Of a stretch of 64,000 nucleotides of DNA, positions 3,417 through 62,319 are shown in pieces. Numbering within the stretch: the stretch's first letter is position 1; every line of letters starts with the position of its first letter. The position numbers were made by a program, and so were the translations under genes. Origin of the DNA: Ascaphus truei (lineage: Eukaryota; Chordata; Amphibia; Anura; Ascaphidae). The notes beneath the pieces are model-generated. The model was not told the origin of the DNA, searched no databases, and saw only the letters and a list, made by a program, of their open reading frames with translations. The DNA is taken from positions 218,905,216-218,969,215 of the forward strand of contig CM071568.1 in the NCBI GenBank assembly GCA_036426205.1. Direction: 5' to 3'.

Positions 3417-3619
3417 CCAATGTTACCTGTACTGAGAACCCCCCGTCCGGAACAACATGGATTACCTTCGGATACATATTTGGACACTGGCAATGGAATA
3501 CCTTACCCATGATCTGCATGTGTTTTTAAAGTGGCGCCCAACTTGCCTTGCTCCTTCCTCGTATCGGGCGGGAGGGACTCTGATTTTCTCGGGCTATCCA
3601 GATGACGTCATGGAGAACC

Positions 3620-38064: not shown

Positions 38065-38791
38065 AATTCCCTGTATAATGATAGAAGAAAAAAGTGAATT
38101 GCGCTCTAAAAAATGTGTTAATGTGCTCTTAGTGATATTAATAATACAAATAAGATAACCTGTTTACAATATGAGAGGTTTATGCTGCTGCGCTCGTGGT
38201 ACCGCTCCACAACCAAACTAATGCAAAAACAAAGAAAGAGACAGCGCAAAAAACCTCATTGTGCAATATTTACACATGTATTAGGACACTGGTGAGTATC
38301 ACACACTACACATATAGTTAGATTTAACAGAACATGTTATGGACATGTTACCAATCTGTGCTCAGGTACAGGACTTCTAGGTTACGGGCTTCCAAAGGTC
38401 TCGTGGAACGCATGCAGGTACAGCAGTCGTCACCGGCGGAACTGCCATCCAGATAAGAGAACCTCCGATACCCGATGTTACGGTGGAAAGTCCTATCAAC
38501 TGTATCCAGCCCTCTGCACACCAGCTTCAACGCCACACGGGGCGAGGGATGGTGGCTATGTATGCCGCTGCAGGGAACCTCACCGTTCAACCGCTTACTC
38601 GGAAACGCTAGACGCACTCTGTGACGTCATCGGGCGGCGTCAGCGTCGTGCGCGTAGTGAGTCCCTTGCTGAGGAAGCTGGAAGTCCCAAGAATGTCCCG
38701 TATAGTGCCCGCTTGGAGTCGCGAGCAATTAGCAAGTAATTAGAAATGTATTAAAACATCCAGTATGTAGGAATAAATGAATGCGCCTCAG

Positions 38792-38826
38792 TCCAACGCG
38801 TTTCGTGTTTACAACACTTCGTCAGG
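38792..38826 (-). ncRNA. Hammerhead ribozyme motif, left PLE arm
   Basis: The reverse strand reads ctgacga, stem II gtgttgtaaacac, then gaaacgcgttgg. The core is intact. The same stem I pairs as in the right-arm copy are available (TCC with GGA, CCTC with GAGG). It is in the sense orientation of NEK10 transcription, inside its large intron. Confidence 0.7.
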
Positions 38827-39539
38827 GAATGGAGGATTAATTCATGGGGCCGCTTCATATACACACACTCTCTTATGATTGGCTGCTTATCAAAAAGTCC
38901 AGCCTCTCATGTGGGAGGTCAAACAAAAACACAAGTGTTTCCAACAAACATATTTCATAAAATACACACAATATTTATTAATCAAACAAAAAACTTTTTG
39001 GCGATGTTGCTAGAAATATAAAAAAAAATATATTAGTACATAAATCAAAAAACGGTCCTGGATAGATAAATCCATCAAAAGCCAGTTATGCGTATAAGAC
39101 GTACCTGCAGTGTATTGTCTGATTTTGAGAGCCAATCGGTGCTCTTATTTGATAAATTCATTGAACTGGATACGATAGGGCCCTCCTTACTAAATCACTA
39201 ACAAAGTGTTTGAGACATGGACGAGATCGCTCTTCTGATACAAAATAATACAATTGTGACGAGGATAGAAATATTGACAATGTATTAAATCCCTTTTGTC
39301 ATGAGTATAACTCAGTCAGTAAAATATCCGAAAATTATAGGTAATAGCTGGAATATTCTATGTAATGACCCTCATCCTTGCCCGTTCTCTAACAGTCCAC
39401 ACCAAGCTTCACACTAACCAGAGCAAAAAATTTAAAACACTACCTGCACCCCGTGATATTGGTCCCCCTTGATTTACAATCGGGACACACCTGGTTACTG
39501 TAAAACCTAATGGCAATTTAGTTTGCGGTGATGCAAAGC

Positions 39540-39940
39540 TTGCAAAATGCTCCATACTGACCGAAAATTCATTCAAATCAACAAAGGATGTTTTACGGTG
39601 AAAGGACTGCATTTCTTGCAATCCACACATTAGTCTATTGTCTTCAATGCCCATGCGGGTACACATATATTTGGACGTACAAAAGATATTTGAGGATTTG
39701 GATACTAGAGCACCTAGAAACAACAATTAGGTTTAGAACATCATGTATTTCTAGACATTTAAAATAAACATAACTGTGACTCTAGTCTTTTGAAATAATT
39801 GGATCCAAATTGTTAACATTGGAAGACGTGGGGGAGATAGAGACAAGATGCTTTCAAAACGGAAAAGTCTGTGGTATTATAAAATGCAACTCTGTCTCCT
39901 TTAGGACTTAATGAAGACTCGATGTTTGTCCCTTTACTAA
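39540..39940 (+). pseudogene. PLE GIY-YIG endonuclease relic
   Basis: With frameshifts, the plus strand gives FLAIHTLVYCLQCPCGYTY, then WTYKRYLRIWILEHLETTI. These align with VYLLECPCKLQYVGRTGRPL and the RxxEHxxxI block of the intact PLE frame at 57847-58311. Further on, LKRKSLWYYKMQLCLL and DLMKT match the QQETFWIYTL...GLN end of that domain. Stops and substitutions make it dead. It is in the same orientation as the right arm. Confidence 0.65.
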
Positions 39941-40371
39941 GTATTTAAAATTATTAAAATTATTTTAATTTTATGTTTAAAATTGTTACTAAAAAATTTA
40001 ATATATTTTAAAATCTGCCATTTTAGAGTATAGGGTATTCTCTATATAGGTCACCCAACTGATGTTATATCTCTCATATATATTTTTTCTTTTTTTCTTT
40101 TCATATATACCTTATAGATCTTTTAAATAACATATATTAAGTGTTTGATTTTATGTCAATCATATGTTTTTTTATATTTCTAGCAACATCGCCAAAAAGT
40201 TTTTTGTTTGATTAATAAATATATTGTGTGTATTTTATGTAAAATTATGTTTGCTTGGAAACACTTGTGTTTTATTGTACCTCCCACATGAGAGGCTGGA
40301 CTTTTTGATAAGCAGCCAATCATAAGAGATCTGTGGGTATATGAAGCGCCCCCATGAATTAATCCTCCATT

Positions 40372-40407
40372 CCCTGACGAAGTGTTGTAAACACGAAACG
40401 CGTTGGA
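40372..40407 (+). ncRNA. Hammerhead ribozyme motif, right PLE arm
   Basis: The plus strand reads ctgacga, stem II gtgttgtaaacac (GTGTT/AACAC), then gaaacgcgtt. Flanking bases can form a type I stem I in two parts: TCC before the core pairs with GGA after the cleavage region, and CCTC further 5' pairs with GAGG further 3', with a small internal loop between. One extra A follows CTGACGA before stem II, as in the copy at 58633. Confidence 0.72.
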
Positions 40408-41159
40408 CTGAGGGCGCATTCATTTATTCCTACATACTGGATGTTTTAATACATTGTCTAATTACATTGTCTAATTGCTCGCGACTCCAAGCGGGCACTA
40501 TACGGGACATTCTTGGGACTTCCAGCTTCCTCAAGCAGTGACTCACTCGCGCACGACGCTGACGCCGCCCGATGACGTCACAGATGTGCGTCTAGCGTTC
40601 TCCGAGTAAGCGGTTGACGGTTAGGTTCCCTGCAGCGGCATACATAGCCGAATCATCCTCCGCCCCGTGTGGCGTTTTGAAGCTGGTGTGCAGAGGGCTG
40701 GATACAGTTGATAGGACTTTCCACCGTAACACTCGGTATCGGAGTGTTCTCTTCATCTGGAGTGGCAGTTCCCCTGCGGTGACGACTGCTGTACCCTGCA
40801 TGCTGTTCCACGAGACCTGTGAGAAGCCAGCTAACCTAGAAGTCCTGTACCCTGAGCACAGATTGGTAACATGTCCATAACATGTTCTGCTTAAATCTAA
40901 CTATATTGATGTACGTGTGATACTCACCAGTTTACTAATACAATTTTGTTTAAATATTGCACAATGAGGTTTTTTGCGCTGTCTCTTTCTTTGTTTTTAA
41001 TTCCCTGTATAACCCTGTTCTTTTATCGTAACCATGTATTTTTTATAACTCTGTGCCCAGGACATACTTGAAAACGAGAGGTATCTCTCAATGTATTACT
41101 TCCTCGTAAAACATTTTTATAAATAAATTAAATTAAATTAATGAAACATTACTAGTTCT

Positions 41160-53749: not shown

Positions 53750-54290
53750 AGTGTTTGAGTGTGTGTGTGAGTATGTGTGAGTGGATGTATGCGTGTTTGA
53801 GTGTGTGTATGAGTGAATACAGTGAATACAGACACCCAGTCAGTCACCCACCCAGTCAGGCAGTCACCCACATATCCACCCAGTCAGTCAGTCACCCATC
53901 CTCCCAGTCAGTCAGTCACCCACCCAAGTGTCAGTCAGTCACCGTCACCCACCCAGGTGTCAATCACAGTCACACACCCAATTGTCAGTCTCTCACCCAC
54001 CCAATTGTCAGTCTGTCACCCACCCCCTCTTTCACCCACCCACTCTTTCACCCACCCCCTCTGTCACCCACACACTCTCTCTGTCACACCCACACATTCT
54101 CTCTCTCTCTGTCACACCCACACTCTCTCTCTGTCACACCCACACTCTCTCTAACACCCACACACTCTCTCTCACACCCACACTCTCTCTCTCACACCCA
54201 CACTCTCTCTCTCTCTCACACCCACACTCTTTCTCTGTCACTCTCTCCCTCTCTCTCTCTCTCTGTCACCCACACACTCTCTCTCTCTCT
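53750..54290. repeat. Simple repeats, GTGTGAGTAT then CAGTCAGTCACCCACC and CACACCCACACTCTCTCT
   Basis: Three successive microsatellite-like tracts. The final CTCTCT/CACACC tract is complementary to the GA/GTGTGA tract at about 55690-55770, extending the palindrome described below. Confidence 0.9.
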
Positions 54291-54845
54291 GGATCTGGAA
54301 ATCTTATGTACCCTATATATCTGAACCGCCCTATACCTACACCGAAATAACCTATACTGCTTTCTTCCAGATCTGACTTTTGAGCTTCACACGGGAGACA
54401 TCGGAATCCCCCCTAACCCGGAAGACAGGTAGGGAACCCCTCCAACATATAACATTGCGGGAATGAGGGTACCTGGACATTGAGGGACTGCGGATCAGGT
54501 AAAATCCCAGGCGGGATTGCTGCTTTAGATATTGTGAAGCGGGGGCGTCCAGACACTGGTTAAGAGGTTCAGGAAACTAGTCATTCACATGTGGCTTTTT
54601 TTCTATATCCGACATTTATACGCACACACACAGACACACACACGTAATTATGTAACAAGGACTAATTGTAGTAAAGTATAAATGTAATACAATAAATAAA
54701 CTGTTATGTCAAAAACAAATGTTATTAGTTCTTACTAGGAATTTATTCAATTTCTTTTTTAAAAATCGGGGCTAGGGGCGGGGCTAGGTTGCGAGTAGAT
54801 TTTTTGGTTCGGCGAGTAGATTATTGGGTGATTTGTCGACCACTG

Positions 54846-54894
<49 letters not shown>

Positions 54895-55692
54895 AGGGCA
54901 GTTGGCACACTGTAAACTATTGATCCACTGATGCTTATCCCATATGCACACATGAAATAAATATTTACCAGATGTTGGTCTGGGAAACAGAGACAGCACA
55001 CAGCCAGGTAAGTACAAAAAAACTGTATTCATATAAGAAGTACATGGCACTACATCCAACGTTTCGGTCAGCAGAATGTGACCTTCCTCAGCGACAAGCC
55101 TGAGGAAGGTCACATTCTGCTGACCGAATATGAATACAGTTTTTTTTGTACTTACCTGGCTGTGTGCTGTCTCCCGGACCAACATCTGGTAAATATTTAG
55201 CCCCGCCCCCAGCCCCACTTAAAAAAAAAAAGAAATTGAACTAATAAGTAAGAACTAATAGCAAAATTCGTTTTTGACTTAAGTTTATTTATTGTATTAC
55301 ATTTATAATTTACTACAATTAGTCCTTGTTATGTGTGTGTGTGAGTGTGTGAGTGGGTAAACGTTGGATCTAGAAAAAAAAGCCACATGTGAATGACTAG
55401 TTTCCTGCACCTCTTAACCAGTGTCTGGATGCTCCCACTTCACAATATCTAAAGCAGCAATCCCACCTGGGATCTTACCTGATCCGCAGTCCCTCAATGT
55501 CCCCTCATTCCCACTATGTTATATATTGGAGGGGAGGTGTTCCCTACCCGACTTCTGGGTTAGGGGGGATTCTGATGTCTCCCATGTTAAGCTTGAGAGT
55601 CAGATCTGGAGGAAAGCAGTATAGGTTATTTCGGTGTAGGTATAGGGCAGTTAAGATACATAGGGTAAATAAGATATCCAGATCCAGAGTGT
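54291..55692. repeat. Nested palindrome, about 1.4 kb, with PLE-like core
   Basis: The outer arms (about 54291-54790 and 55200-55692) are inverted copies, for example cctacaccgaaataacctat versus ataggttatttcggtgtagg. Inside lies a second inverted pair: atttaccagatgttggtctg (54962) versus its inverse at 55175-55195. At the centre is a third hairpin (55061-55129). The inner part has pLTR-like features and a hammerhead core. A (TA)n tract lies at about 54847-54888. No protein-coding frame. Confidence 0.75.
55053..55090 (-). ncRNA. Hammerhead-like motif at the palindrome centre
   Basis: The reverse strand reads ctgagga, stem II ggtcacattctgctgacc (GGTCA/TGACC), then gaaacgttgg. The core is complete. 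A partial inverted copy follows on the plus strand (55100-55129) and stops just after GAA, so the two could pair with each other instead of folding as ribozymes. Confidence 0.5.
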
Positions 55693-55769
55693 GAGACAGA
55701 GTGTGAGAGTGTGTGACAGAGAGAGAGAGAGAGGGTGACAGAGAGATGGTGACAGAGAGAGTGACTGTA

Positions 55770-56460
55770 AGGAATCGGGGAACACGTCCTTTGTGACGTG
55801 TTCCCTCCTTACCTGTCTCTGCACAGACCACCGTGCTGGTACCAATGCATGTGCGCACCCCCACTCTGCTTACAGAGTGCTCGTGCAGCTCTTCTAGCGA
55901 TGCCACGGAGCTTAGCTCCCGCCCTGCCCTTGCCCCCACAAATCTGCTCTGCGCGTTATCTGGCCCGATCACGCGCTGCATGATGACATAATGTCTCTGC
56001 GTATTGACGTTTCCTGACGCGTTTCATCTCACACGGGCGACTTTCTCAAAGGCCAATCACGCGCGGAGCAGACTTGTGGCTATACACAATAGGAGGTTCT
56101 ACTGAGGCTCCACACGGATCTCTTGCGGACATTCAATTGTGTTTTTCGGCTCTCCAGTGTACCGTTGCTCTTCTATACTGTGAAGTGAGGCTCTGGCTGT
56201 GGATCACAGATGCGAGAAACCTGGTTGGCGGTGATAAATATTCACATATGCATATATATATTTTACTTACCCTATGTGAGTGATATTCTTCCCCCTCCCT
56301 TCCATTTTCCCATCAATAAATGTACTTTTTTACGCTATGTAGCGTACGCTCTCTTCTCTTTTTCCTCTAGGTCTTTAATTCGATTTGGTTAACCCTCCTG
56401 AGAGCTGCCGGAGACCCCCTTACCGAAATTAATTATCCAACACCTGGTGGACTTTACTAA
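55770..56460 (-). mobile_element. PLE pLTR-like fragment
   Basis: On the reverse strand, 56013-56054 reads ttgagaa, a weak stem II, then gaaacgcgtcagg, a degenerate hammerhead. The flanking sequence has no gene. The boundary is approximate. Confidence 0.4.
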
Positions 56461-56699
56461 AGGACTGGTTCTTATATCTTCCCTATATATTATTCACTTA
56501 ATACTGTTTGTGTATTATAATCATTAGCTGTGTATAGTATATGCATTAATCACTTTTTTTCACAGAACTATTGTACACTTTTATGTTTGTATTTTCTTCC
56601 CTTAATTAATAATTTTCACCACTTTTTATTTTATTAATTCACATTATTAGTGTGGCGCTCCTATATATGTTTACATATATATACATATATATATATGTA

Positions 56700-56773
56700 T
56701 ATATATAGCCAATAAAGAATATCACTTGTGAGCACATTCACATCTTAGACAGGTCTGCAACCCTGCCTTTCAA
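56700..56773. mobile_element. Left part of the foldback repeat hosting the PLE
   Basis: The sequence tagccaataaagaatatcac and cttgtgagcacattcacat recurs at 59782-59820 in the neighbouring copy. This is the left flank of the repeat that the PLE at 56791-59449 interrupted; its right flank continues from 59450. Confidence 0.7.
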
Positions 56774-57458
56774 CCATTATCACCTAGCATTATAAAAATA
56801 CAAATATAGAAATGTAACCCGGCGCGTGTATACATAAATTAAGTGAATACCAATATAATTTATACTGTAGTCCATAAAAGGATATGAGTGACTGATGTGA
56901 GTAAAATCCTTTTCTTCCAAACTTGAGTGGTTAACAGATGGGAGATAGACTCAAATCTCAAAGCACATAGAGAAAGCGTTCCTCTTCACAGTAAAATGCT
57001 GTCTAGAAGTAGGTAGGCAGCATACAGTGGAGAGAAACTATATATGGAGGATTCCAAGTCCAGAGAACTTCAGGTGTAACACGAACCCCACGTGGTATCC
57101 CCAAATCCGGTGGACATAAGAAGAACCTCCTTCTCAGGAAAAGATGTCTCCTGAACTTGTCCCAGGACTCCTGTATCTTGATCTCCAACAAGGGATGAAG
57201 AGAGACAGAAGATTGCGCAATATATAAAAACTTTAATGACACCTCCAGAACTAAAACAGAATAATACAAAGGAACGTGAGTTTAAAATCAAATTAGAAGT
57301 GCCCGACCCGGCACACCCATCAGCAATGCTCAGTCACTGTTAGTCCTTGCCGGTATCGCGTGTACCTCGCGTTGTTCCGGCGCGACCGTGATAACGTCAC
57401 CGTCTCCGTTCCTGACTGGCAGTCAGATGAGTGTCCAGGGCAGCATCTCCTTAGGCTC

Positions 57459-57500
57459 CTCCCTACGCATTTCGTGACGGGGAACGTCACTTCGTCAGGG
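57459..57500 (-). ncRNA. Hammerhead motif, left PLE arm
   Basis: The reverse strand reads ctgacga, stem II gtgacgttccccgtcac, then gaaatgcgtaggg. It differs from the right-arm copy by a C-to-T change in the stem III segment. It lies in the sense direction of NEK10 if the gene extends this far upstream. Confidence 0.6.
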
Positions 57501-57846
57501 GTTGTGGAGCCTCAGCAATCCCGTGTGTTTTTTATAAGCCCATGTTAACCCATTAAATGATGGGGTCAAATGACGAATAACAATTGCAAGGTGAATCTAC
57601 TGATCCTTATTATGGCACCAGTGGGGTTAAGTAGACACCTCTGAGGTGAGCAAAAGGTTCAATTAGGAACACAATGTATATAACATAAATAAAAAATTAT
57701 TAAAAAATTATTAAAACGGAAACCTGAATTGAACATAAATTGAACATCAGAGGAAAAAGAAACAGCAATTATATTGAACAGCCCAAAACTTGAAATAACA
57801 ATTATCACCTAGCTGCCCCAAGAAACATCTGGGATCTGGTCCAACT

Positions 57847-58311
57847 ATGTGGCTAAAAGACCTTAAAGGTTATTTTCCTTGTAAGAAATGTATTGGTTGT
57901 AGCTTTGGATCTAGATGTAAAGAGTTCAAAACTAATGTCACCGGTAAAAGTTATGACATTCGAACATTTATTAATTGTAAATCAAATTTTTGTGTTTACC
58001 TTTTAGAATGCCCCTGTAAGTTACAGTATGTGGGTAGAACGGGGAGACCTCTGAAGAGAAGATTTGCAGAACATGTGTACAACATCAAAAATGGTCTGGA
58101 GACACATAGTGTATCCAACCATTTTAAGATCCATCATAATATGTCACCTGAGGGACTTACCTGTATTGGCATCGATTGCCCCAAGGTTGGTGTTAGAGGG
58201 GGAGATAGATTACAGAGGGTCTCTCAACAAGAGACCTTCTGGATCTACACTTTAAAGACCCTCTCCCCTAAGGGGCTTAACATAGATTTCGATCTAGCAT
58301 CTTTTCTTTAG
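57847..58311 (+). CDS. Penelope-like element GIY-YIG endonuclease domain
   Basis: This 154-codon open frame encodes the C-terminal endonuclease of a PLE, the enzyme that nicks target DNA for retrotransposition. A Cys cluster (C12, C15, C18, C24 in CKKCIGCSFGSRC) forms the linker finger. The nuclease domain starts at about residue 49: CVYLLECPCKLQYVGRTGRP holds the two strands equivalent to GIY and YIG, followed by the catalytic-type Arg region LKRRFAEH. The later block RGGDRLQRVSQQETFWIYTL contains the expected Glu (E129). The end, GLNIDFDL, is typical. The reverse transcriptase domain that should precede it is missing, so the ATG is only the first Met of a truncated frame. Intact length and motifs suggest recent insertion. 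The TAG stop is followed by the right pLTR. Confidence 0.88.
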   Translation: MWLKDLKGYFPCKKCIGCSFGSRCKEFKTNVTGKSYDIRTFINCKSNFCVYLLECPCKLQYVGRTGRPLKRRFAEHVYNIKNGLETHSVSNHFKIHHNMSPEGLTCIGIDCPKVGVRGGDRLQRVSQQETFWIYTLKTLSPKGLNIDFDLASFL

Positions 58312-58632
58312 AGACTCCCTGTTCTGCTCACATAAATATGCTTTTATCTGCTGTTCAATATAAATGCTGTTTCTTTTTCCTCTGATGTTCAATTTATGTT
58401 CAATTCAAGTTTCCGTTTTAATAATTTTTTAATAATTTTTTATTTATGTTATATACATTGTGTTCCTAATTGAACCTTTTGCTCACCTCAGAGGTGTCTA
58501 CTTAACCCCACTGGTGCCATAATAAGGATCAGTAGATTCACCTTGCAATTGTTATTCCTCATGTGACCCCATCATTTAATGGGTTAACATGGGCTTATAA
58601 AAAACACACGGGATTGCTGAGGCTCCACAATC

Positions 58633-58674
58633 CCCTGACGAAGTGACATTCCCTGTCACGAAACGCGTAGGGAG
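58633..58674 (+). ncRNA. Hammerhead ribozyme motif, right PLE arm
   Basis: The plus strand reads ctgacga, stem II gtgacattccctgtcac (GTGAC/GTCAC), then gaaacgcgta. Stem I is well supported: CCC before the core pairs with GGG after the cleavage region, and GGCTCC further 5' pairs with GGAGCC further 3', with an internal loop (acaat / a). The ACGCGT stem III is very short, as in known PLE hammerheads. This is the best ribozyme candidate in the window. Confidence 0.8.
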
Positions 58675-59449
58675 GAGCCTAAGGAGAAGCTGCCCTGGAC
58701 ACTCATCTGACTGCCAGTCAGGAACGGAGACGGTGACGTTATCACGGTCGCGCCGGAACAACACGAGGTACACGCGATACCGGCAAGGACTAACAGTGAC
58801 TGAGCATTGCTGATGGGTGTGCCGGGTCGGGCACTTCTAATTTGATTTTAAACTCACGTTCCTTTGTATTATTCTGTTTTAGTTCTGGAGGCGTCATTAA
58901 AGTTTTTATATATTGCGCAATCTTCTGTCTCTCTTCATCCCTTGTTGGAGATCAAGATACAGGAGTCCTGGGACAAGTTCAGGAGACATCTTTTCCTGAG
59001 AAGGAGGTTCTTCTTATGTCCACTGGATTTGGGGATACCATGTGGGGTTCGTGTTACACCTGAAGTTCTCTGGACTTGGAAGACTCCATATACAGTTTCT
59101 CTCCACTGTATGCTGCCTACCTACTTCTAGACAGCATTTTACTGTGAAGAGGAACGCTTTCTCTATTTGCTTTGAGATTTGAGTCTATCTCCCATCTGTT
59201 AACCACTCAAGTTTGGAAGAAAAGGATTTTACTCACATCAGTCACTCATATCCTTTCATGGACTATAAATTATATTGGTTATTCACTTAATTTATGTATA
59301 CACGCGCCGGGTTACATTTCTATATTTGTATTTTTATATTGTTTTTTGGGTATTTTGAGATTAATTCCTAGTAGATTACCAGGCTGCTTAATTTGTGCAC
59401 TGCACTGTTAACTTTATGGTCTAGCGCTTGTTTAAGTATTTTTGTATTG

Positions 59450-59728
59450 CCATTATCACCTAGCATACTGCACTGCAGCAAGGGATTCTGGGAAATAGCA
59501 TCCAAATGAGCACACAATGTGTCACCTTTTGCCTGGAATATCCATTCACATGGAGCCCATTTAAGCAAATGCATCGCCGTTCACACAGCTTTTAAGCACA
59601 GCATGGGCCTAGCAATGCAAGTCAAACCACTCACAGACATGTTTCAACCTTGATGGGTATCATCAATGTGAGGTTGGTTAATACTTGTTTTACAATATTT
59701 CTAGGCTGGGTAGGTTTCCCATATACAT
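59450..59728. mobile_element. Right part of the interrupted foldback repeat
   Basis: It continues actgcactgcagcaagggat and gagcacacaatgtgtcacc, which correspond to the intact copy at about 59868-59935. A degenerate hammerhead-like string is on the reverse strand at 59635-59670 (ttgatga, stem II acccatcaaggtt, gaaacatgtc). Confidence 0.6.
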
Positions 59729-59729
59729 T

Positions 59730-60062
59730 TTAAGTTATGGTGGATGAAAAAGGCGACAAAAAACCTCCACCGTTAGCATATAGCCAATAAAGAATATCAC
59801 TTGTGAGCAAATTCACATGTCATAGACAGGTCTGCAACCCTGCCTTTCAACCATTATCATCTAGCATACAGTGCTCCTACTGCATCAAGTGATTCTGGGA
59901 AATTACATGCAAATGAGCACACAATATGTCACTTTTTGCTTGGAATATCCATTCATTCACATGGAGCTACGACATGTGAATGTGTTCACAAGTGATATGC
60001 TTTATTGGCTATATGATAACGGTGGAGGTTTTTTGCTGCCTTTTTCACCCACCATAACTTAA
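59730..60062. mobile_element. 333-bp foldback element
   Basis: The left arm begins ttaagttatggtggatgaaa and runs through aacctccaccgttagcatat. The right arm contains atatgataacggtggaggtt and ends tcacccaccataacttaa. The arms are about 100 bases with mismatches. A related copy was interrupted by the PLE at 56791-59449. Confidence 0.7.
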
Positions 60063-60239
60063 AACACAATATATATATATCCATATTGGTGGGAATAGTA
60101 TATTAGAAAACACAGCAATTATTTTACAAAGTTGACTGTAATAGTAATGTTTTAGTAGAAATGAGAGGTGGTTAATAAAGGAACATGTACAAATATTGAA
60201 TGTGAACTGTCGAAAATATGTTGTAACCAAAGAAAATGG

Positions 60240-60693: not shown

Positions 60694-62319
60694 CAGTTAG
60701 GTCCGGAAATAATTGGACACGGATACAATTTTCATAATTTTGGCTGTGTACGCCACCACAATGGATTTGAAATGAACCAACAGAGATGCAATAGAAGTGC
60801 AGACTTTCAGCTTTAATTCAAGGGGTTGAACAAAAATATCGTATGAAATGTTTAGGAATTGCAACCATTTTCATACACAGTCCCCTTATTTCAGGGGCTC
60901 AAGTGTAATTGGACAAATTAAAACAATCATAAATAAAATGTTCATTTTTAATACTTTGTCGAGAATCCTTTGCAGGCAATGACTGCTTGAAGTCTGGAAC
61001 GCATGGACATCACCAAACGCTGGGTTTCCTCCTTTGTGATGCTTTGCCAGGGCTTTACTACAGCTGTCTTCAGTTGTTGTTTGTTCGTGGGTCTTTCTGC
61101 CTTAAGTTTCGTCTTCAGCAAGTGAAATGCATGCTTGATCAGGTTGAGATCAGGTGATTGACTCGGCCATTGCAGAATATTCCACTTCTTTGCCTTAAAA
61201 AACTCCTGGGTTGCTCTCGCAGTATGTTTTGGGTCATTGTCCAATCAACTTTCCTGAATTTGGCCGAATCAGAGCAGACAATATATCCCTATACACTTCA
61301 GAATTCATCCGGCTGTTCTGTCTTCTGTCACATCATCAATAAACACTAGTGACCCTGTGCCACTGGAAGCCATGCATGCCCATGCCATCACACTGCCTCC
61401 ACCGTGTTTTACAGATGATGTGGTATGCTTCGGATCATGAGCCGTTCCAAGCCTTCTCCATATTTTTTTCCCCCATCATTCTGGTACAGGTTGATCTTAG
61501 TTTCATCTGTCCAAAGAATGCTGTTCCAGAACTGGGCTGGCTTTTTTAGATATTGTTTGGCAAAGTCTAATCTGGCCTTTCTATTCTTGAGGCTTATGAA
61601 TGGTTTGCACCTTGTGGTGAACCCTCTGTATTTGCTCTCGCGAAATCTTCTCTTTATGGTAGACTTGGATAATGATATGCCTACCTCCTGGAGAGTGTTC
61701 TTCACTTGGCAGGATGTTGTGAAGGGGTTATTCTTTACCATGGAAAGTATCCTATTATCATCTACCATTGTTGTCTTCCGTGGACATCCAGGCCTTTTTG
61801 TGTTGCATAGCTCACCAGTGCGTTCTTTTTTTCTCAGAATGTACCAAACTGTTGATTTGGCCACTCCTAATGTTCCTTCTATCTCTCTGATGGATTTTCC
61901 TTTTTTTTGCAGCCTAAGGATGCCCTGTTTCACTTGCATTGAGAGCTCCTTTGACCGCATGTTGTGGGTTCACAGCAACAGCTTCCAAATGCGAATGCTG
62001 CATCTGGAATCAACTCCAGACCTTTTACCTGCTTATTTGATGATGAAATAACGAAGGAATAGTCCACACCTGTCCATGAAACAGCTTTTGAGTCAATTGT
62101 CCAATTACTTTTGGTCCCTTGAAAAAGAGGGGGCTACATATTAAAGAGATGTAATTCCAAAACCCTTCCTCTAATTAGGATATGAATAACCTCAAATTAA
62201 AGCTGATAGACTGCACCTTAAGCCCATATTCATTATTTAACTGTAACTTGAATTTATTTTGGCAAACAGCCGAAATAACAAAACTTGTATCAGTGTCCAA
62301 TTATTTCCGGACCTAACTG
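60694..62319 (-). mobile_element. Tc1/mariner element, complete ends, dead transposase
   Basis: The terminal inverted repeats start cagttaggtccggaaataat on the left and end attatttccggacctaactg on the right. Each end is flanked by the TA dinucleotide (60692-60693 and 62320-62321) expected for Tc1/mariner insertion. The unit is 1,626 bases, the usual size for vertebrate Tc1 elements. The transposase is on the reverse strand in two blocks, 61960-61409 and 61244-60948. Confidence 0.95.
60948..61960 (-). pseudogene. Tc1-family transposase, frameshifted
   Basis: The protein starts at 61960 with MRSKELSMQVKQGILRLQKK. Two helix-turn-helix units occupy about residues 1-110, with a GRPR-like linker (RPGCPRKT, about 56-63). 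The first catalytic Asp is in LWTDETKINL (D152). After a broken stretch (61245-61408, with [11 protein letters not shown] and FIDDVTEDR still readable), the second frame opens MDNDPKHTARAT, carrying the second Asp. The third catalytic position, normally Glu in DLNPIE-type motifs, reads SPDLNLIKHAFHLLK, with Lys. Frameshifts, an in-frame stop and the E-to-K change show it cannot be active. Confidence 0.92.

Follow-up and report, generated by a model that had tools for sequence, protein, structure and literature searches.

The window, a 64,000-nucleotide stretch of the Ascaphus truei genome (contig CM071568.1), carries an insertion of a Penelope-like retrotransposon (PLE) of the type with a GIY-YIG endonuclease and hammerhead motifs (Table 1). 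The predicted inverted arms of about 1 kb are present at 56788-57782 and 58350-59341, are 97.5% identical by BLAST and meet in a 3-nt overlap (AGC), with zero target sequence between them. Related sequence occurs at 39 other genomic places (82-95% identity), and these copies show the sense part extending upstream past 57780 into reverse transcriptase (RT) coding sequence. The unit is two overlapping, 5′-truncated PLE copies lying head to head, not one element with terminal repeats; because a truncated copy would not retain the 5′ inverted repeat of its source, we infer that the inverted arm arose during insertion.

Table 1. Features of the PLE insertion and its host repeat, in window coordinates.
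Feature	Position	Strand	Basis or remark
Host repeat copy 1 (occupied), left part, ending in the target duplication	56703..56790	+	aligns to 59778-59867
Left copy of target duplication	56774..56790	+	identical to 59450-59466; probably 56776-56790 (15 bp), CC at 56774-56775 ambiguous
Antisense (no-tail) arm	56791..57782	-	reverse complement of about 58350-59338; 97.5% identical to sense arm
Splice scar, antisense arm: exact absence of 97-nt GT-AG intron	57003..57004	-	comparison with relatives
Hammerhead motif, antisense arm, GAAATGC replacing GAAACGC	57461..57506	-	pattern match
Arm joint, AGC common to both arms	57780..57782	+	comparison with L002/L003
Sense (tail) arm, 5′-truncated; final CC ambiguous with target	57780..59451	+	upstream RT coding sequence in other copies
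PLE frame remnant: GIY-YIG-like endonuclease end and stop codon, RT absent	57799..58311	+	weak domain match
TATAAAA box	58596..58602	+	same box in 14 of 22 arms
Inner-end cluster of relatives' arms (8/59), perhaps the RNA 5′ end	58626..58634	+	end typing and simulation
Hammerhead motif, sense arm; predicted cut 58669/58670 from the hammerhead consensus	58632..58676	+	pattern, conservation
Splice scar, sense arm: exact absence of 97-nt intron	59129..59130	+	comparison with relatives
Proximal end site GTATTTTTATATTG	59328..59341	+	antisense arm stops at equivalent of 59338
Tail, sense arm only, ending GTATTTTTGTATTG(CC)	59342..59451	+	arm alignment, relatives
Right copy of target duplication	59450..59466	+	probably 59452-59466
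Host repeat copy 1 (occupied), right part	59467..59556	+	homology to copy 2
Host repeat copy 2 (unoccupied), 98-nt inverted ends	59728..60064	+	337-nt unit

Insertion site and target duplication

The only exact occurrences of CCATTATCACCTAGCAT in the window adjoin the two ends of the unit, in agreement with the original prediction of an exact 17-nt direct repeat at these places. Because GTATTGCC precedes the duplication in several relatives of this PLE, the target duplication is probably the 15-bp ATTATCACCTAGCAT plus an ambiguous CC, which may derive from the element rather than from the target. A 13-nt match to the target within the element (ATTATCACCTAGC at 57801-57813) was considered as a third target copy near the joint and rejected: relatives hold the same stretch as coding sequence with small differences (a 1-base change in L003), and the match is therefore taken as a coincidence.

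The PLE landed in a MITE-like host repeat, 337 nt long and bounded by inverted ends of 98 nt, that is present many times in the genome; one copy lies unoccupied beside the insertion. This neighbor reads straight through the site, as had been claimed for 59730-60062, but its extent had to be corrected (Table 1) and its homology to the occupied copy spans 56703 to about 59556 only, the latter copy being without its outer left end and having diverged on its right side. When the joined flanks with one copy of the direct repeat are aligned to copy 2 (from 59778 on), the junction is clean, with zero gap across it; the 17 bp contain one C/T mismatch, and the nearest gaps, of 2 and 4 nt, fall a little outside them. 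The description of a young insertion, flanked by a target duplication and accompanied by an empty paralog, is borne out, in the sense of fairly young. In a genome-wide survey (2.8 Gb) in which 40 host-repeat places were scored from 1673 candidates, all 40 were continuous over the site and 4 additional short matches were not; because these 40 comprise 39 places other than copy 2 of the window, it is usual for this repeat to be unoccupied. Further downstream, on the minus strand, the window holds a remnant of a Tc1/mariner-type transposase (60948-61969).

Coding part and family identity

The original prediction of an open GIY-YIG frame stands as to the frame, which is stop-free, whereas its domain match is weak (E 0.00097, 19.8 bits) and falls under the Pfam cut-off of 22.6. 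The single database match to this frame is an Ascaphus truei protein with 86% identity. One relative (L024) has a 726-aa frame with RT and endonuclease, in which RVT_1 reaches 21.9 bits, under the cut-off of 29.6; its two best matches are Ascaphus truei proteins, and 6 among the 120 homologs listed in the search with this frame combine PF01541 with PF00078. NCBIfam gave a single weak group II RT match, far under its cut-off, and a sequence search of the PDB gave zero matches. The order typical of PLEs that have an endonuclease, with RT first and the GIY-YIG domain after it, is found in L024, the window copy retaining the endonuclease end only. In a degraded array (L014), tail sequence lies 5′ and pLTR sequence 3′ of the coding part; no intact tandem was seen. 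PLE-like frames also occur in database proteins named for Ascaphus host genes (P0002, P0007 and P0068; protein-arginine deiminase, calcium uptake protein 2 and Hook 3), in which annotation fusions are possible.

Two recurrent outer ends and a tail on one arm

The sense arm has its outer end at 59449 (or 59451), and the antisense arm stops about 110 nt earlier, at the equivalent of 59338. The sequences at the two end sites, GTATTTTTATATTG (59328-59341) and GTATTTTTGTATTG (59436-59449), differ by 1 base, and the same two end types recur in other copies. Both occur in simple copies with a target duplication, the short end in L010, L011 and L019 and the tail end in L018 and L043.

Head-to-head pairs were compiled from a list that took only pairs with one arm reaching position 850, so that tail-less pairs were not counted; after two rows of the L014 array and a second L037 row were dropped, its 31 rows yielded 28 pairs (the window and 27 loci), four of which are cut (L049, L055, L057 and L058), leaving 24 that include a tail arm and in which neither outer end is out of view. 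An extra pair, L026, has arms too distant for the list. In all 24 the tail is confined to a single arm, a tail on at least one arm being the entry condition of the list, and tail/tail pairs numbered zero among these 24. In 16 the tail arm is joined to one ending at the proximal site (reference positions 756-786), and in the remaining 8 to one with another internal end (L015, L017, L030, L033, L037, L038, L041 and L044). Loci L029-L058 were chosen for holding the tail and L009-L028 by their coding part; among the latter, 7 of 20 are clear pairs with one tail each (L014 and L026 not counted). A tail-less pair does exist, at 47-1046 of L038, with ends at 768 and 690. Target duplications of 11-17 nt flank 19 of the 24 pairs (with L009 called by eye, L029 weak and L036 containing one mismatch) and were not found for the other five (L033, L038, L041, L044 and L051).

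Two units of the L014 array continue after the tail with shared sequence, in one of which an ATG follows 64 nt on; the frame from this ATG, with stops and shifts, heads toward the RT and endonuclease. This order places both end sites upstream of the ORF. They look like a pair of start sites for reverse transcription, not like the ends of the element's unit. The precise element boundaries expected at this locus are only half confirmed: they delimit this one insertion, and both are overrun in other copies. The original prediction had named copies extending beyond 56791 or 59449 as evidence against it, and such copies exist in part: tail arms elsewhere pass the equivalent of 59338, which corresponds to 56791, and the two L014 copies continue beyond the equivalent of 59449.

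Hammerhead motifs, TATA box and inner arm ends

The hammerhead pattern occurs four times in the window, against 0.04 expected, and is kept in relatives; Rfam returned no hammerhead match in the window at the gathering level, nor in 54900-60200 at E<=1. PLEs are described as carrying a minimal hammerhead in the pLTR that has no proper helix III (PMC6155905), and a minimal motif of this kind, likewise without a proper helix III, is present in the pLTR here. Two other inverted-repeat units lie in the window. That at 38225-40998 has one outward-directed hammerhead motif per arm (38799-38825, minus strand; 40374-40400, plus strand) and is probably a second head-to-head PLE; that at 54212-55764 has two back-to-back hammerhead-like motifs at its center (55060-55135), and both its arms begin at the hammerhead core, like the inner-end cluster of the focal family.

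Among 22 arms with an intact upstream part, the box reads TATAAAA in 14, TATTTAA in 4, TATATAT in 2 and TATAAAT in 1, and is absent from one (L016). The inner ends of the arms are widely spread, yet 8 of the 59 that were typed (L020, L033, L035, L037, L038, L049, L057 and L058) fall within 9 nt, in a cluster 30-38 nt downstream of the window's TATAAAA. Such a count was reached in none of 20000 simulations, whose null of uniform placement ignores possible RT stops at structure. In this typing, L030 and L034 were corrected by eye and the two values of L041 were kept despite being splice joints, and L009, L014, L050, arms that continue beyond the reference start or to values lower than -900, and arms whose inner side is cut at a locus edge were excluded. 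The cluster, which adjoins the conserved hammerhead core away from its cut site, is perhaps the 5′ end of the RNA.

Inner ends at 58670 were considered as run-off to the hammerhead cut. Three of them fall away, L041 being a GT-AG join to an ORF exon, L050 being preceded by N and L043 starting 6-7 nt upstream; because L034 is the sole remaining case, there is no support for templates cut by the hammerhead.

Spliced source RNA and age of the insertion

Relatives carry a 97-nt intron with the donor GTAAGT, a pyrimidine tract and the acceptor TATAG. Of 59 arms spanning it, 54 show no gap there and 2 have gaps of another kind, and splicing is evident in 3, the window's two and one from L049; intron retention, a property of PLEs, is thus found in this family. 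This intron is missing from both window arms with exact boundaries, and their source therefore passed through a spliced sense RNA. In addition, two AG acceptors of the pLTR are used with a single ORF donor (CTG/GTAAAA where unspliced, in L014 and L024) by L029 and L041, these GT-AG joins of ORF exon and pLTR being at 2932 of L029 and at 3443 and 3818 of L041. Judged from these scars and joins, sense RNA served as the template at least in these lineages.

The window arms differ at 20 positions, one of which (59339) falls at the target boundary: 11 changes occur in the antisense arm alone, another 5 in the sense arm alone, and the remaining 4 positions are variable among relatives. These differences fit a single source followed by about 0.9% change per arm. 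With a published substitution range of 10% for 30-100 million years (PMC12822217), the insertion would be roughly 3-9 million years old, at a borrowed rate that may not be that of this frog.

Origin of the head-to-head arrangement

The host repeat holds two overlapping head-to-head PLE copies with a 15-17 bp duplication outside them, and many relatives share this plan. We favor, with a probability of about 75%, a single insertion event in which a staggered cut was followed by two starts of reverse transcription on sense RNA and by head-to-head joining of the cDNAs. The PLE protein would cut both target strands with a stagger, after which one target 3′ end would prime at the distal start site (59449/59451), producing the tail, and the other at the proximal site (59338), about 110 nt upstream. 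Sense RNA, one molecule or several sister molecules, would serve as template, either spliced here or from an already spliced source; the cDNAs would stop at different points (57780 and 58350) and be joined at the AGC, and gap filling would leave the target duplication.

Head-to-head arms might instead arise by self-priming, in which the fold-back of a cDNA, or of an antisense RNA, primes its own copying, a process inferred for bdelloid PLEs in an account that leaves alternatives open (Arkhipova et al., 2013, PMC3846280). The nesting of the no-tail arm within the tail arm in the window, and the center of L009, where the halves of a 57-nt palindrome stand 5 nt apart, are of the kind that fold-back predicts; taken by themselves, these two pairs would fit it. 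However, an arm copied from the other arm would be nested within it, and in 11 of the 28 pairs (L017, L020, L030, L034, L036, L037, L040, L042, L044, L049 and L054) the no-tail arm extends further 5′ than the tail arm, yet without the tail; in L044 it measures only about 49 nt. The lack of nesting in these pairs disfavors self-priming and favors two separate initiations, although some of them could owe it to deletions that occurred at the joint afterward. The splice scars of the window and the splice-joined L029 and L041 also require sense RNA, and we consider self-priming unlikely. Counted against two starts on sense RNA are the 8 of 24 no-tail arms that end away from the proximal site, and an intronless source copy would also explain the window's splice scars, given that only 3 of 59 arms are spliced.

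In LINE-1 twin priming, priming by the second target strand on the RNA yields an inverted segment, and the inverted and sense parts are adjacent and non-overlapping. A process of this type, with the second target end priming within the same RNA so that the inverted part is the 5′ neighbor of the sense part, would account for the outside duplication, the inverted 5′ part and the short overlap at the joint; yet here the arms overlap almost completely, 58350-59338 being covered by both, so that one RNA would have to have been copied twice, and we consider this origin very improbable. Smaller still are the chances of two successive insertions, the second beside the first in opposite orientation: PLE arrays are frequent and L014 is a complex one, but the window arms have no target copy between them, 19 of 24 pairs have a single outer duplication, and the tail/short pairing is recurrent. 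A DNA transposon with long inverted ends would also display inverted ends and a target duplication, but the ends here are unequal, the inner joints variable, the relatives carry a frame for RT and endonuclease, and splice scars are present; refuted by the splice-joined copies, this origin has next to no probability.

The preferred reading of two starts on sense RNA can be sharpened into a rule, to which we give even odds: within a single event, one strand uses the distal and the other the proximal start on the sense RNA of one source, never both the distal, and complete cDNAs stop at an RNA 5′ end a short way upstream of the hammerhead core. Against the preferred reading, the start sites of the Anolis PLE are reported as equal on both strands in vitro (PMC11167929), so that this work lends no support to a strict assignment of starts to strands. 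Within the literature searched, which most subscription journals lay outside, no published report of the tail/short pairing rule was found.

Relation to known Penelope-like elements

The closest described system is PAc, a Poseidon PLE of Anolis carolinensis, for which a pair of neighboring RT start sites close to the beginning of the ORF, with a tail between them, has been reported; both strands are cut and extended, and in vitro the start site is equal for top and bottom strands (Frangieh et al., 2024, PMC11167929). The family in the window resembles PAc, as characterized there, in its two end sites with a tail between, its hammerhead motif and its RT and GIY-YIG endonuclease. It differs in the length of the tail (30-40 nt in PAc, about 110 nt here), in the position of the start sites, which lie 111-118 nt inside the ORF of PAc but upstream of the first ATG here, and in arrangement, PAc being described as tandem whereas head-to-head pairs are frequent here (PMC11167929). 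With Pen2a of Adineta vaga and other Penelope elements, as they have been described, the family shares inverted pLTRs, an optional tail on one arm, target duplication, intron retention and head-to-head arrangement, although in Adineta vaga the tail is 31 bp, the pLTR about 200 bp and the duplications 8-10 bp, compared with a tail of about 110 nt and a duplication of 15-17 bp in the window, and the arm ends counted across copies here disagree with the self-priming reading offered for that species (PMC3846280).

The window unit is thus a well-preserved example of an already known arrangement, and what makes it interesting is that the tail/short pairing recurs and that arms can be non-nested, both of which bear on the mechanism. 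One proposed route of PLE insertion is self-priming, perhaps on antisense RNA; another, to which experiments in vitro point, has reverse transcription begin inside sense RNA from both strands of the cut target. Because this genome has many copies with duplications, two end types, splice scars and variable joints, the models are separable by sequence, and the window copy offers a clean example with the empty target beside it. If true, the rule of one distal and one proximal start would account jointly for inverted pLTRs and for the "optional tail on one arm", without self-priming.
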